Source: Pseudobacteriovorax antillogorgiicola
Lineage (GTDB): Bacteria > Bdellovibrionota_B > Oligoflexia > Oligoflexales > RGVZ01
Length of the DNA: 64,000 bases
Direction of reading: 5' to 3'
Assembly: GCA_945865565.1 (NCBI GenBank)
Contig: CAMBEK010000001.1
Coordinates: forward strand, 289,795-353,794
Positions 12,651 through 29,749 of the stretch are shown piece by piece. Positions within the stretch are counted from its first letter, which is position 1; every line of letters begins with the position of its first letter. Under the pieces are notes generated by a model. The model saw nothing but the letters and a program-made list of their open reading frames with translations, was not told the origin of the DNA and did no database searches. Both the position numbers and the translations under genes were made by a program.

Positions 12651-13043
12651 ATGATGAACGAGACCTTCAAAAAGCACCCTGTGTCCCCCGCTCCAGTGGA
12701 CACATCTGCGTCTGACCGCCTCGGCTTGGAGGAGATCGTTCATTTGGCGAACAAAGTGGGTTTGGAATATGCCTCGGCCAAAAAAGACGCCGATCGTCTG
12801 GAACTACTGAAGCCGACCATCAGGGCGCGCATCATGATCCGTCTCGATGATGGGGAAATGAATGAGACGCGCCTGCGCCGTTTGACTGAAACGGACGCCG
12901 AGTATGTTGAATTTCTGGAAAAGATGGCGGAGACACGCGGCGAGGCTGACAAGCTTCGCATACGCTATGAATCCTACAAGAATTTGTTCGAAGCCAAGAG
13001 AAGCTTACTCAGTTATCACAAGGCCGAAATGAAACTGGTGTGA
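12651..13043 (+). CDS. hypothetical coiled-coil protein
   Basis: This 130-residue, highly charged, helical protein has no recognised family. Residues about 30-130 look like continuous helices, with a basic-acidic pattern ending in RIRYESYKNLFEAKRSLLSYHKAE. It has no signal peptide, so it is probably cytoplasmic. Two adjacent ATG codons could start it and neither has a clear SD. A 10-bp palindrome (GCAATATTGC) lies 12 bp upstream. It is convergent with the TPR lipoprotein gene, 6 bp away. Confidence 0.65.
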   Translation: MMNETFKKHPVSPAPVDTSASDRLGLEEIVHLANKVGLEYASAKKDADRLELLKPTIRARIMIRLDDGEMNETRLRRLTETDAEYVEFLEKMAETRGEADKLRIRYESYKNLFEAKRSLLSYHKAEMKLV

Positions 13044-13049
13044 CCATTT

Positions 13050-15417: not shown

Positions 15418-16316
15418 ATGTCAGCCCTCGTTGGACCCGGATCCTGGGGGCATTTTCTGCGGACATCAAACTAGCCCACTCCGTTTTTGCCATGCCTTTT
15501 GCGGTGGTCGGTCTTGTGCTTTCGGGTGCAGGTTGGCCAAGCCTTTACCAGGCATTTTTTTTGTTGGTGGCAATGGTCTCGGCACGCAGTTTTGCGATGG
15601 GAATGAACCGTTACTTGGACGCTGACATAGATTCCCTCAACGAACGCACGGTTTTACGAGCGATTCCAGCAGGTCGCATTCACCGCCACCAAAGTCTGGC
15701 GATTAGTTTAGCTGCAGCAGCGATTTTTTTAGCGGCGTCATTCGCCCTGTCGACGATGTGCGGTTTTCTGGCGATACCGCTACTGATGATTTTGGCCTTT
15801 TATTCGCAGATGAAGCGGATTGGCTGGATGACTCACTTTTACCTGGGCCTTTGCCTTGCACTTGCCCCCGTGGCCGTGTCGATTGCATTGACGGGTTCAG
15901 TGCCTCTGGCGACCCTTTTGGTGGCGGCGGCAGTAACGTTCTGGACCGCAGGTTTTGACATTCTTTATTCCCTGCAAGACCGGACGTTTGATCAGGCGCA
16001 TGGTTTGGCGAGTATCCCGGCTAGATTTGGTGCACGCAATTCATTGTGGATCAGTCGCCTTTGTTTTGCCGCCATGATGATCTTGCTGGTGTCTGCGGGG
16101 CAAATTTCTGATGCCGGCATTTTTTGGTATGCCGCATTGATCGCAGTTTCAGCCCTTCTATTCTGGGAACATTGGATCCTTCGCAATACGGCTGAACAGG
16201 TTGATGGTCGTTTGATCGACAAGGCTTTTTTTACGGCAAACGCGTGGATCAGTGTGGTTTTCTGTGCGGGTGTTTTGGTTGATCGGCTGGCTTCGGTTTG
16301 GGGGACAATTCCATGA
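15384..16316 (+). CDS. UbiA-family prenyltransferase, probably for menaquinone (MqnP-like)
   Basis: UbiA enzymes attach a polyprenyl chain to an aromatic ring in the membrane. The prenyl-diphosphate motif is visible as N75, D79 and D83 in NRYLDADID, and the second aspartate-rich motif as YSLQDRTFDQA. AHSVFAMPFA near residue 31 is typical. About eight to nine membrane helices are present in 310 residues. A second possible ATG nine codons later overlaps the upstream stop by 7 bp. With ubiX next door and mqnC in the window, a role in futalosine-route menaquinone synthesis is more likely than ubiquinone, but this is inference. Confidence 0.85.
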   Translation: MAIQTLRNEMVDVSPRWTRILGAFSADIKLAHSVFAMPFAVVGLVLSGAGWPSLYQAFFLLVAMVSARSFAMGMNRYLDADIDSLNERTVLRAIPAGRIHRHQSLAISLAAAAIFLAASFALSTMCGFLAIPLLMILAFYSQMKRIGWMTHFYLGLCLALAPVAVSIALTGSVPLATLLVAAAVTFWTAGFDILYSLQDRTFDQAHGLASIPARFGARNSLWISRLCFAAMMILLVSAGQISDAGIFWYAALIAVSALLFWEHWILRNTAEQVDGRLIDKAFFTANAWISVVFCAGVLVDRLASVWGTIP

Positions 16317-16969
16317 CGATACAAATGACGACAAAAATGACGGCAAATCCGACTCCAGGGCGCCGCGTGATGATCGCCGTTACCGGTGCCTCTGGCAGCA
16401 TTTACGCAGAACGCTTGATCCAGCAATGTTTGGCGCGTTTCCCGCGAGTCTACATTGTGGCAACTGATCCGGCGCGGCAGGTGGCCGACCATGAACTTCC
16501 AGAAAATTCTTCAAATGGCGGTGTCTCGCTGCGTAAAATCTTGGCAGGGGATATTCCAGAGGCCCACCGCGAGGTGATTCGTTTGTTGAAAAACGATGAT
16601 CTTTTTGCACCAGTGGCCAGTGGATCCTCTGCGCCAACGGACATGATCGTCGTCCCGTGTTCTATGGGTTCCCTCGCGCGAATTGCCCAGGGCCTGTCGA
16701 CTAACCTGCTGGAGCGCGCCGCCGATGTTGTGTTGAAGCAACGCCGCCGGTTGATTATGGTTCCGCGTGAAACGCCACTCAACGCCATTCATTTGCGCAA
16801 CATGCTGACACTCAGTGAAATGGGCGTGGATATTGTCCCCGCCATGCCGGCCTTTTACCAGCACCCCAAGACCATTGATGACATGGTTGATTTTGTGGTG
16901 GGCAGGATTCTAGAACTTCTCGATGTCGAACACGGCCTCTACCGACCGTGGAATTCCAGGATGCGTTGA
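16313..16969 (+). CDS. ubiX: UbiX-family flavin prenyltransferase
   Basis: UbiX makes prenylated FMN, the cofactor of UbiD-type decarboxylases that act on prenylated aromatic acids. The 218-residue protein has TGASGSIYAERL at the flavin phosphate site, VPCSMGSLARIAQGLS, and the MVPRETPLNAIHLRNML and PAMPAFYQHP blocks. The ATG overlaps the ubiA-like stop (ATGA) and follows GGGGGA; an in-frame TTG 15 bp earlier is less likely. The last 15 codons lie in a 50-bp segment repeated 1.5 kb downstream. Confidence 0.93.
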   Translation: MTIQMTTKMTANPTPGRRVMIAVTGASGSIYAERLIQQCLARFPRVYIVATDPARQVADHELPENSSNGGVSLRKILAGDIPEAHREVIRLLKNDDLFAPVASGSSAPTDMIVVPCSMGSLARIAQGLSTNLLERAADVVLKQRRRLIMVPRETPLNAIHLRNMLTLSEMGVDIVPAMPAFYQHPKTIDDMVDFVVGRILELLDVEHGLYRPWNSRMR

Positions 16970-16973
16970 TTTT
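16924..16973 (+). repeat. 50-bp direct repeat, left copy (3' end of ubiX)
   Basis: This 50-bp segment covers the last codons and stop of ubiX. It is found again at 18446-18495 with 49 of 50 bases identical; the one difference is A at 16945 against G at 18467. The two copies bracket exactly one gene. Confidence 0.95.
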
Positions 16974-17000
16974 CATATGAATGATTTCCGTTCATATGAA
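16972..17000. repeat. paired palindrome TTCATATGAA
   Basis: The self-complementary 10-mer TTCATATGAA occurs twice, at 16972-16981 and 16991-17000, separated by 9 bp. It can fold into a 10-bp hairpin or serve as two operator half-sites. It starts in the last two bases of the left 50-bp repeat, exactly at the edge of the insert. No T-run follows on either strand. Confidence 0.6.
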
Positions 17001-18445
17001 AAGCGGAAATTTGTTTCACCAATATGGATATGTAACAACGGCAGTCATGTAGCATCCCCAGATCGCTGCGATGCTAATTGTGGTGCGACAAAAACGTCGC
17101 TCCTGCAAACCACTTGATGCCGAACCATGAAGTAGCACCAGCAGCCCTGCTCCACTCAGGAAATACCCGAAATCGCTCGCATATCGATCTATGTATGCAC
17201 ACCAAGATGACGTCATCGCCAGCATCACAAGACCAACCAGGGTATAGAGTCCAATTGTTAAATTAAGCTGGCCACCAATGGGTCTCGCATCAATTGATCG
17301 GGGGTTAGATTGGCGAGCATAGATCCAAAATGCTGCTGGAAGCCATGGTGCGACCCACAGGAATCCGAGTGGATTCTCGATGAAGATTCGCCCGTTTCGT
17401 AGGTAGCCAGAGTGTATGCCGACCGGCGCAAGGTATGGAAAATGAGCGATCCGATGGGGCAGATGAATTAGTGAGATCCATAATCCAGATGGAATCCGTG
17501 AAGGGTCAAAGAAAGTGAGGTGACTTTGGTCGACCTCACCCATTTGATATCGGACCCCAAACTCAAAAATATTATCGAATCGAAAATAATTGTAGGCAGC
17601 CATTGTCAGTAAGATCATGCAAAACGGCGTGAACATGGCGAATGCATCAAGGATTTTTTCAGTTAATCGGTTTCCTGTGCTGCTGTAGTTGTCCTTTCTG
17701 AACAGAACCAACATTGTGACGTATATCGCACATATTGCGACGATAAAGTGTGGCCTGCTGGCGATAGCAATTCCGTAAAGCAACGAAGCGATCGCCAAAT
17801 TTTTTCTACGGTTTTCATCGGGTGTCGCGGCCAGGACGGTGGCCCATATCGCCCACGTCATGGCCGCAGCGCAGGCCGCTACCGGGATTTCGTAAGTTCT
17901 TGCGCGGGCAACGAGAATAAACCACAGAGAGTTTGTTACAAGCACAAGTCCTGCCAGACCAAAAATCCATGTTGGGACCAAAGCGAATGATTTTTTGCGA
18001 AGTCTGAGCGTGATGGCTACACAGCCCCCAGTGGTCAGTAAAAGGAGGGTAATTAACGCAAGTCCATCGCTAAGCGCCGTGCCTGTGATCAGTTGGTACG
18101 GCAAGTACAAGAGCAGCGCCGGTGCTGCTCCGAAGTACAGGTAAAGTCTCCCTTTGTAGAGGGAATAGTCCCATAAGGCCAGATGAGGGTGTAGAGTATA
18201 TTTCTTATGTTCTGGTCCGTAAGGGTCCTTTAAAGATGTGATGACTGCCGGTGCTATTCCCACATCCAGTCGGCCCATCGAGAATGCTTTGGCAAGTTTA
18301 TCGTAGTATCCGCCATGGATGGAATGGCCCGTCAAGGATGACGTCGGCATTATCCAAAGAATCATGAATATGGCGATTGCGAAGCATATAGGTGAGACTA
18401 ATCTCAAAAATCCATTTCTCAATTTAATTTCCCTAAGGCATTCAC
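16974..18445. mobile_element. 1,472-bp insert bracketed by 50-bp direct repeats
   Basis: The segment between the two 50-bp repeats carries one leftward gene and nothing else. It separates ubiX from ilvA, which would otherwise face each other almost end to end. No transposase, integrase or inverted terminal repeats are seen. The sequence looks more A/T-rich than the genes on both sides, judged by eye. The repeat of a gene 3' end fits either a site-specific integration with a duplicated attachment site or a recombination that duplicated the end of ubiX. That it moved as a unit is inference. Confidence 0.45.
17016..18422 (-). CDS. multi-pass membrane protein, glycosyltransferase-like (lone cargo of the insert)
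   Basis: The 468-residue protein has about ten to twelve membrane helices and a first outer loop with GGYYDKLAKAF and YGPEHKKYTLHPHLALWDYSLYKG. This layout recalls GT39/ArnT-type enzymes that use lipid-linked sugars, but I cannot assign a family. The frame stays open upstream through the repeat into ilvA, but that part is not protein-like. A TTG preceded by AGGGA at 7 bp is the best start and lies inside the insert. Base composition differs from that of its neighbours. Confidence 0.6.
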   Translation of the reverse strand: MRNGFLRLVSPICFAIAIFMILWIMPTSSLTGHSIHGGYYDKLAKAFSMGRLDVGIAPAVITSLKDPYGPEHKKYTLHPHLALWDYSLYKGRLYLYFGAAPALLLYLPYQLITGTALSDGLALITLLLLTTGGCVAITLRLRKKSFALVPTWIFGLAGLVLVTNSLWFILVARARTYEIPVAACAAAMTWAIWATVLAATPDENRRKNLAIASLLYGIAIASRPHFIVAICAIYVTMLVLFRKDNYSSTGNRLTEKILDAFAMFTPFCMILLTMAAYNYFRFDNIFEFGVRYQMGEVDQSHLTFFDPSRIPSGLWISLIHLPHRIAHFPYLAPVGIHSGYLRNGRIFIENPLGFLWVAPWLPAAFWIYARQSNPRSIDARPIGGQLNLTIGLYTLVGLVMLAMTSSWCAYIDRYASDFGYFLSGAGLLVLLHGSASSGLQERRFCRTTISIAAIWGCYMTAVVTYPYW

Positions 18446-18495
18446 TGTCGAACACGGCCTCTACCGGCCGTGGAATTCCAGGATGCGTTGATTTT
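18446..18495 (+). repeat. 50-bp direct repeat, right copy
   Basis: This is the second copy of the ubiX 3' end, ending one base before the ilvA stop codon. In this copy CACGGCC and GGCCGTG form a perfect 7-bp inverted repeat with a 6-nt loop; the single base change in the left copy breaks one pair of that stem. Confidence 0.95.
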
Positions 18496-19746
18496 TTATA
18501 AGACGGTTTTTGCCTTGAAACCAGCAGTGTGCAGCGCCGCGAGGATCGCCTCCTGCTGCTGACGGTCGGTTGTCTCAAGGTCCACGTCAATCCGCACTTC
18601 ATCGTAATAAGACATGCCAAACATCCGGTTGTGCTCTACCTCGACCAGATTTCCACCTTGTGTGCTCAGGATGTTGAGAAACTCAACCAGCTTTCCTGGG
18701 CGGTCTTCGATGACGCAGGTCAGACGCATGAAACGGCCAGAGCGCAAAAGCCCCCTGGTGGTGATCCGTTGCAGCAGGTTCGTGTCGATGTTCCCGCCAG
18801 AAACAATGCATACCACTGAAGGCGCAGTGCCCTTGGGAAGAGCAGGCGACAGCAAATCTTCTTTTGATAACTTGATCAGGGCTGCCGCTGTGACCGCCCC
18901 GCAACCCTCAGCCAGCAAGTGATCCCGCTCCATAAGGCCCATGAGGGCATCAGCAATTTCATCTTCAGTAACGAGCACGACCTGATCCACGTACTTTTGG
19001 ATCATTGCGAATGTAAGGTCGCTGGGTTGTTTGACGGCGATGCCGTCGGCGATCGTCCGATGGTTGCTTGAAGGTACGATTTTTCCGGCAGCCAGGCTCT
19101 TCACCACGGACGGGTAGGCTTCCGTTTGGACCCCGATCACTTTGACGTTGGGAAACTTTGTCTTGTAGGCACAGGCGATCCCGCTGATCAAACCACCACC
19201 GCCTATGGGAACAATGATGGTTGTTGCATCGGGGACTTGGTCAAATAGTTCAAGGGCCACGGTCCCTTGCCCGGCGATGATCATTGGGTCGTCAAAAGCA
19301 TGGATGAAGTGGCCGCCGGTTTTTGCCTGAAATTCCTTCGCAGCGGTGAAGGCAGCATCGTAGCTTTCGCCGCTCAGGTTGATTGTGGCGCCGAGGTTTT
19401 TTGTCGACTGCGCCTTTACCATCGGTGTTCTGGCCGGCATGAAGATCGTGGCGTGAACGCCCAGGCGTTTGCAAATGTGGGCCACACCTTGGGCGTGATT
19501 TCCTGCGCTGGCGGCGATGACCCCCTTTTCGAGGGTCGCTCGGGGAGCTGACAGCAGGGCGTTGGACGCTCCCCGGATTTTAAAGGAGCCAGACAGATTT
19601 AAATTTTCCAGCTTCAAATGGACTTTAAAATTCGTCAAATCTTCCAGAAAGTAGGAACGCTTTACCGGGGTTGCGGCAACGATCTCGCGGACGCGTGCCC
19701 ATGCTTGTTCAATTTGTGTGATGCCAATCATATTGCCCTGCGCCAT
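18496..19746 (-). CDS. ilvA: threonine ammonia-lyase (threonine dehydratase) with ACT domain
   Basis: IlvA turns Thr into 2-oxobutanoate, the first step towards Ile. The 416-residue protein has the PLP-binding Lys in GSFKIRGA, the substrate loop ASAGNHAQGVA, the phosphate-binding GGGGLISG and the SGGN block. A C-terminal ACT domain of about 80 residues (RLTCVIEDRPGKLVEFL) makes it the shorter, single-ACT type, so feedback control by Ile or Val is possible. Two nearby ATGs are candidates; neither has a strong SD. It ends exactly at the right copy of the 50-bp repeat. Confidence 0.92.
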   Translation of the reverse strand: MAQGNMIGITQIEQAWARVREIVAATPVKRSYFLEDLTNFKVHLKLENLNLSGSFKIRGASNALLSAPRATLEKGVIAASAGNHAQGVAHICKRLGVHATIFMPARTPMVKAQSTKNLGATINLSGESYDAAFTAAKEFQAKTGGHFIHAFDDPMIIAGQGTVALELFDQVPDATTIIVPIGGGGLISGIACAYKTKFPNVKVIGVQTEAYPSVVKSLAAGKIVPSSNHRTIADGIAVKQPSDLTFAMIQKYVDQVVLVTEDEIADALMGLMERDHLLAEGCGAVTAAALIKLSKEDLLSPALPKGTAPSVVCIVSGGNIDTNLLQRITTRGLLRSGRFMRLTCVIEDRPGKLVEFLNILSTQGGNLVEVEHNRMFGMSYYDEVRIDVDLETTDRQQQEAILAALHTAGFKAKTVL

Positions 19747-19831
19747 TGCTGAAGGTGGGTATTTAAGGCTCTTCAGGATAAAATAAGTACCAAAGCTTCT
19801 CAACTTTACAGCGACTTTTCAGAGGTTCGCA

Positions 19832-27630: not shown

Positions 27631-29749
27631 GGATGATCTCCGTTGCGGCCACAGAGATTTGAGTCCCTGGGCCAAAGATTGCAGACACGCCTGACTTTTT
27701 CAAAAAAGCGTGGTCGCCTTCGGGAATGATTCCGCCGACAATGACCCGGATGTCATCCGCCTTTAGTTTTTTCAACTCGGCGATCAACTGCGGTATCAGG
27801 GTTTTATGTCCTGCCGCCTGGGACGAGATGCCAACCACGTGAACATCGTTCTCGACGGCCTGCCGGGCGACTTCTTCTGGAGTTTGGAAGAGGGGGCCTA
27901 TATCGACATCGAAACCAAGATCGGCGAGTCCCGTGGCGATGACCTTTGCTCCGCGGTCGTGGCCATCCTGCCCCATTTTGGCGACAAGGATTCGTGGTTG
28001 GCGCCCGTCCGCTTTGGCGAAGGCGGCAACCAAATCACGCGCAGCATCGAATTGAGCGTTATTTTCCATGCCTCTAGAATACACGCTGCGCACCAATTGT
28101 GTACCTGGCTTGTGGCGTCCAAAGACGCTGGCGAGTGTTTCTGAAATTTCGCCGACCGTAGCACGCACGCGCGTCGCCTTGACGCTTAGCTCGAGGAGGT
28201 TTCCGTTTCCTTCGGCTCCCTTTTTCAGGTCAGCCAGGGCCGCGGCAACCTGATTGGAATCGCGCCGCGCACGAACTTCTGCCAAACGTTTCTTCTGTGA
28301 CTTAAGCACGGCATCGTTATCGATGCTCAACACTTCGACCTTGTGGTCTCCCGTGCGGTCACTGAAGTATTTATTGACGCCAACAATGACATCCCGTCCG
28401 CTATCGATCCTGGCCTGTTTGCGGGCTGCCGATTCCTCAATTCGCAATTTTGGGATTCCAGCCTTGATGGCAGCAACCATACCGCCTGCATCCTCGATCT
28501 CTTTGATCAACTCCCTTGCGCGCTGCACAAGATCTGCGGTGACGCGTTCAATGAACCAACTGCCACCCAATGGATCGACAACATGAGTGATGTCGGTTTC
28601 GTCTTGCAGGATAAGTTGCGTGTTGCGGGCAATGCGCGCGGAAAAATCGGTTGGCAGTCCAATGGCTTCATCGAGGGCATTGGTATGCAAAGACTGGGTT
28701 CCACCAAGGACTCCGGCCATGGCCTCGATCGTGGTGCGGATGACATTGTTGTAGGGGTCTTGCTCGGTCAGAGAGTATCCAGATGTTTGGCAGTGGGTGC
28801 GCAGCATTGCCGATTGTGGATTTTGCGGATTGAAGGGTGCGATCAATTCGTGCCACAGGGTTCTTGCAGCGCGTAATTTTCCGACTTCCATGAAGAAGTT
28901 CATGCCAATGGCAAAAAAGAAGGACAAACGGGGCGCAAACTCGTCGATCGCCAGGCCGCGCGCCATCGCAAGGCGCACATACTCCAGTCCATCTGCCAAG
29001 GTGTAGGCAAGTTCCAGTGCCGAGTCAGCCCCGGCCTCTTGCATGTGGTATCCACTGATGCTGATGGAGTTGAACCGCGGCATATGCCTGGTCGCGTATT
29101 CGATCACATCAGCGACAATACGCATGGATGGTTCTGGCGGGTAAATGAACGTGTTGCGCACCATGTATTCTTTCAGGATGTCATTTTGAATCGTTCCCGA
29201 AAGTTTTTCTGGCGGTACGCCCTGCTCTTCTCCAGCGACAATGTATCCGGCCATGATGGGCAGAACCGCTCCATTCATCGTCATCGATACACTCATCTCG
29301 TCCAACGGGATTCCGTCGAAGAGTATTTTCATATCTTCAACCGAATCGATCGCCACACCAGCTTTGCCCACATCACCAATCACGCGGGGATGGTCGGAGT
29401 CGTAGCCCCGGTGGGTCGCCAGATCAAAGGCGACGCTGAGGCCCTTTTGGCCCGCAGCCAGATTTCGCCGGTAAAAGGCGTTGGATTTTTCGGCGGTCGA
29501 AAATCCTGCGTATTGGCGGATCGTCCATGGCCGGTGGGTGTACATCGTGGCGCGCGGGCCACGGGTATAAGGAGGAAAACCCGGTAAACCAGGACCCGTC
29601 TTGCCAGCCAGATCGCTCACGTCAACGGCCGTATACAGGGGCTTTGTCGCGATGCCTTCCGGGGTCATCCGGTCCAGGGATTTTGTTGGCTTCCCGGACA
29701 GTTCCTTGGCGGCCAGTTTTTCCCATTTTTGTTTGTCTTGATCTGTCAT
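27611..29749 (-). CDS. methylmalonyl-CoA mutase, large B12-binding subunit
   Basis: This enzyme interconverts methylmalonyl-CoA and succinyl-CoA using adenosylcobalamin, linking propionate, odd-chain fatty acid or branched amino acid breakdown to the citric acid cycle. The 712 residues hold the TIM-barrel substrate domain ([25 protein letters not shown]) and the C-terminal cobalamin domain with the DxHxxG motif ([11 protein letters not shown]). No small subunit gene is beside it, so it may be a homodimer like E. coli ScpA. The ATG has a weak SD. It is divergent from cls. Confidence 0.96.

Follow-up and report, generated by a model that had tools for sequence, protein, structure and literature searches.

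A single-gene insert bracketed by a duplicated ubiX 3' end at the ubiX-ilvA junction

PMC2884548 and PMC5361080 cite reports on Acinetobacter, Pseudomonas stutzeri and Streptococcus pneumoniae in which foreign DNA was incorporated by illegitimate recombination, in its homology-facilitated or double form. Small variable segments in E. coli and other bacteria, some of them flanked by repeats, have likewise been ascribed to illegitimate recombination; 10-18% of these segments are flanked by direct repeats, and repeats mostly shorter than 30 bp were attributed to slippage deletion (PMC2884548). For the T6SS loci of Vibrio, insertion of modules by homology-facilitated illegitimate recombination has been proposed (PMC5361080).

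The kind of process considered here is thus already known, and we would place the insert found between ubiX and ilvA, in a window of 64 kb (the whole stretch of DNA that was analysed), with the cases of PMC2884548 and PMC5361080. With the homology-facilitated and double illegitimate events it shares the lack of a dedicated recombinase and the short or absent homology at one end, but it arose naturally, is a complete insert of one gene, and has the target gene end cleanly duplicated over 50 bp. Like the variable segments of PMC2884548 it is small, non-mobile and present or absent between relatives, whereas here an empty site in three congeners identifies an insertion and the repeat consists of 50 bp of host gene. 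The orphan-gene arrays of the Vibrio T6SS loci (PMC5361080) resemble it in the addition of single gene modules, in displaced gene ends and in the lack of an integrase; there, however, an old effector was replaced, while here both neighbouring genes are intact. It stands out in combining a clean 50-bp target duplication with empty sites that are documented and with a second case from the same genome. For the entry of single genes without mobile-element enzymes the evidence is usually indirect; a recent insert together with three empty sites, a 50-bp target copy and a second case gives a picture of such an event, and the genus is a place to count enzyme-free gene entries, the genome of this freshwater bacterium holding at least one further insertion of the same kind (C5).

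The insert, its flanks and the empty sites

The locus comprises the following features (window positions).
16298-16969, + strand: ubiX (flavin prenyltransferase), intact; TIGR00421/NF004685 above cut-off, Pfam Flavoprotein
16924-16973, + strand: left repeat copy; final 46 bases of ubiX up to and including its stop codon (in-frame), then TTTT
16970-17002, unstranded: palindrome at the left insert end; 14-nt arms, 13/14 Watson-Crick paired, 5-nt loop
16974-18445, unstranded: foreign insert of 1,472 bp, GC 0.479; missing at the ubiX-ilvA junction in three congeners
17016-18422, - strand: cargo gene; product a multi-pass membrane protein of 468 aa, TTG start with an AGGGA-like ribosome site upstream
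18446-18495, + strand: right repeat copy, orphan; ends beside the ilvA stop codon and separates ilvA from the co-directional cargo gene
18496-19803, - strand: ilvA (threonine ammonia-lyase), TIGR01127 above cut-off; convergent with ubiX, co-directional with the cargo gene

In all three congeners (G001, G002 and G003), ubiX and ilvA are convergent and about 11-21 bp apart with the 50-mer in single copy, and in a neighbouring genus three genomes also have ubiX beside ilvA. A preliminary description of this DNA had supposed that the two genes once faced each other across one copy, which is the arrangement seen in the congeners; comparison of the junction in relatives thus revealed an empty site with one 50-mer copy, and the opposite possibility, that all relatives share the arrangement of this genome, does not hold. 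Because the empty site is single-copy in the three congeners and the cargo gene went undetected in all 57 relatives searched (the phylum is represented by 58 genomes in the collection), this genome has, judged by sequence comparison, undergone an insertion in which the ubiX 3' end was duplicated.

The cargo gene is the only gene in the insert, of which it occupies 95.6%, in agreement with the single multi-pass membrane gene described previously. The expected A/T-richness was also borne out, as the GC content of the insert lies below the window mean (0.528) and below the lowest sampled 1,472-bp bin (0.486), and the cargo gene ranks among the lowest 3% of the long ORFs of the genome in GC and the lowest 4% in GC3. 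Its protein matched no family in Pfam or NCBIfam above cut-off, and homologues were found neither in genome and viral contigs, searched by pattern, nor in plasmids. Two weak matches were obtained in records labelled phage, the better one being an ORF in MT836133 (28% identity over 71%), likewise without a Pfam family. By eye, the genes of MT836133.1 (locus L231) include one like RecJ, one for a GT-C-like membrane protein and one like an acyltransferase. As the neighbouring frames resemble RecJ and acyltransferase, this record, although labelled phage, is probably bacterial DNA. The layout of the cargo sequence suggests that the protein is possibly a GT-C-type envelope glycosyltransferase; a single-sequence structure model (pLDDT 40) was too poor to use. 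The gene is likely transcribed by read-through from ilvA, since the two are co-directional, the cargo start is preceded by just 23 bp of insert, and promoter-like matches in the region were not above chance.

The direct 50-bp copies at 16924-16973 and 18446-18495 are 49/50 identical at a spacing of 1522, and the right copy ends directly at the ilvA stop (18495, with the ilvA ORF from 18496), both as given in the preliminary description. No other direct repeat in the 64-kb window reaches 28 bp, the boundaries of the pair are sharp at both sides, and the repeat core pattern gave 0 matches in 100 shuffles. No third copy of the 25-bp core was present in the genome with 3 mismatches allowed, so that the 50-mer is not a dispersed repeat, and it had no match in viral, phage and plasmid collections. 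The lone A/G mismatch between the copies is synonymous and in third position (CGA/CGG), the congeners carrying G (G003) or T (G001 and G002) at this place. The right-copy hairpin CACGGCC-TCTACC-GGCCGTG (7-bp arms, 6-bp spacer, -14.3 kcal/mol), to which attention had been drawn earlier, is indeed present there and broken in the left copy by the single A/G difference, but it stems from coding sequence and does not fold clearly better than shuffled sequence (z -0.76, unremarkable). The window contains no second palindrome like that at the left insert end (fold z -3.78), whose outer TTTT forms the final 4 bases of the left repeat. In the simplest reading, the TTTT common to the host and the insert end would be a 4-nt microhomology at the left junction, and 46 bp of unique ubiX sequence would have been copied twice. 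A terminator role of the repeat or the palindrome was rejected, no terminator-like site being found.

Mechanism of the insertion

The mechanism that we favour is an enzyme-free illegitimate recombination that copied host sequence back, and we lean towards the view that a single foreign gene entered the 4-bp ubiX-ilvA gap by this route, without a dedicated recombinase. It is preferred because of the variable length of the duplications, the unrelated targets and cargos, the lack of a recombinase in the insert and the microhomology at the T-tract. What is seen at the locus is a foreign segment with an empty form in relatives and no dedicated recombinase in the insert; duplication length varies, with 50 bp and at least 85 bp in the two proven cases (see below) and no long repeat in a case from G003. 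A copying strand would have run on the chromosome as far as the TTTT behind the ubiX stop, switched at this 4-nt microhomology to the incoming DNA and copied the cargo gene, and then rejoined the chromosome about 50 bp back within ubiX, so that the gene end was copied twice. It counts against this course that the microhomologies usually reported are shorter than the 50-bp back-step. A homology-facilitated event during DNA uptake would leave a product identical to that of a template switch in repair or replication. A ComEC match was found in 4/4 genomes of the genus, which permits natural transformation without proving competence.

Survivors of such events would be those that leave both neighbouring genes intact. 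A surviving insert would therefore be expected at a gene end, since the duplication keeps both genes of a near-gapless convergent pair intact. In the two proven cases the insert sits at the 3' ends of convergent genes, and a site preference could also be at work. Homologous recombination had been named earlier as an alternative agent; recombination without a dedicated enzyme does fit better, but not as a plain homologous exchange, and an illegitimate or template-switch event is preferred because the 50 bp are unique host sequence.

A different origin is suggested by the position of the repeat. Tyrosine-integrase elements at gene 3' ends restore the gene end and leave an orphan copy at the far side. 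The outcome is alike here, and the 50-mer could be attL and attR of such an element, with the ubiX 3' end as attB and the element either moved in trans or decayed to one gene. The length of the repeat, its location at a gene 3' end and the restored target gene match integrase att sites, and further support comes from the inverted repeat in the right copy, whose 7-bp arms enclose a 6-bp spacer. Against this, the ORF list and the Pfam and NCBIfam profiles revealed no integrase or transposase in the insert, as noted in the preliminary description, whose attachment-site reading is not supported; moreover, neither an attP-bearing relative nor any element bearing the 50-mer was found, the viral, phage and plasmid collections included. 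The inverted repeat that is broken in the left copy is also altered in G001, and the cargo gene fills so much of the insert that little decayed sequence is left. The genome (G000) gave one weak tyrosine-recombinase match, a 356-aa frame, which is probably the housekeeping Xer because similar matches occur in G001 and G003, and no second tyrosine recombinase was found in it. We therefore regard an integrase origin as unlikely.

Two further candidates were rejected: an integron gene cassette, as the palindrome is without a GTTRRRY core (by eye) and no second tyrosine recombinase was found in the genome, and NHEJ fill-in of a staggered break, as Ku was not found in the genus. The recombinase and Ku negatives, like all statements on these genomes and the favoured explanation itself, rest on draft MAG assemblies of about 90% completeness. 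In G003, a tyrosine integrase split over two frames was observed at contig C6:58628-59109, resembling a degraded element.

The same product could have arisen from a circle, made up of the cargo gene and one 50-bp ubiX end and derived from a cell already so arranged, that re-entered by a single homologous crossover, the 49/50 identity being sufficient for rare recombination. This very unlikely course merely shifts the question to the origin of the first arrangement, which was found in no other genome among the relatives searched. Unusually long target-site duplications are known for a few insertion sequences, and foreign DNA flanked by a direct host duplication would also be the outcome of transposition in trans with such a duplication. 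However, no terminal inverted repeats join the insert ends, the palindrome being at one end only; the insert is without a transposase, the genome holds no multi-copy relatives of it, and 50 bp is far longer than the usual duplication, all of which makes transposition highly improbable. Finally, an already modified locus could have been imported homologously from an unsampled congener with an earlier insert. Exchange between lineages is plausible as such, since G000 and G001 are 77-95% identical in this part of the window and 97-98% identical at two other loci; there is, however, no step in identity at the insert edges, and import would leave the original event unexplained, so that we rate it the most improbable of the explanations considered.

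Other insertions in the genus

A direct-repeat scan for isolated repeats covered about 2.36 of the 2.50 Mb of the genome. At C5:89827-90425 (locus L197, C5:89720-90544) it carries a DUF4258 and DUF2283-like gene pair of 599-633 bp and GC 0.46, the DUF2283-like gene being just under the curated cut-off, which is flanked by two copies of the last 85 bp (119 bp with gaps) of a 671-aa gene. The site is empty in G003 and G002, and its target sequence is unrelated to the ubiX repeat. On these alignments of occupied and empty sites, C5 is a second proven insertion with gene-end duplication in this genome. Relatives of the gene pair lie at other loci in G003, G006, G010 and G029, where they are without a flanking repeat, so the duplication belongs to the event and not to the cargo. 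In G003, a 1.42-kb one-gene histidine-kinase insert of GC 0.471 (L046:1131-2556) occupies the equivalent of window positions 13043-13048; the gene is missing at that place in G000, and the G003 insert has no long flanking repeat.

Further repeat-bracketed low-GC segments were encountered on C3, C4 and C6. At C3:128714-130069, a 163-bp near-identical repeat of the start of a photolyase-like gene encloses a segment of one gene that G001 also has; next comes a 1.24-kb ATPase-like gene that is 96.6% identical to a G002 gene in different surroundings (around the ubiX locus, G000 and G002 are 65-81% identical). A further ATPase-like gene, on C6, shares 95.7% identity with one located near the same kinase in G003. 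C6:34646-37772, an insertion hot spot next to a uridine-kinase-like gene, holds a 59-bp orphan piece of the kinase gene and two extra genes in G000; this region has other gene content in G003 and is empty in G001. On C9, 48 bp from the 3' end of a NifU-like gene recur 9 kb away (18833-18880 and 27943-27990), where they follow immediately on a convergent thioesterase-like gene. At C4:122741-123955, part of the 3' end of an ABC-F gene is repeated, with an internal deletion, about 1 kb downstream of the gene, and the low-GC segment in between has a GC of 0.446. The C9, C3 and C4 loci were rejected as proven insertions, since relatives have either other surroundings there or the segment itself; at C9, no empty site could be demonstrated.

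Several small segments thus appear to have entered the genus as one- or two-gene units. An unrecognised insertion process in this Oligoflexales genus, in which compact one- or two-gene cassettes settle at convergent gene ends with 50-110 bp duplicated by a host or helper enzyme in trans, may be envisaged but seems quite unlikely. Over the inserts of the genus, repeat length ranges from none to over 85 bp and the target sequences are unrelated, which further opposes the attachment-site reading; the C5 case with its unrelated target and the same-genus insertions of variable length, partly seen, likewise count against an integrase.

Two minor observations concern repeated sequences elsewhere in the genome. 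At C1:44392-46181, an ArnT-like membrane glycosyltransferase gene is followed by a scrambled remnant consisting of three pieces of the same gene. Dispersed short repeats around CCGTCATCCTGAGC...GAAGGATCCTTTCTT, REP-like and clustered, occur on C1, C3, C6, C9, C19 and C20.
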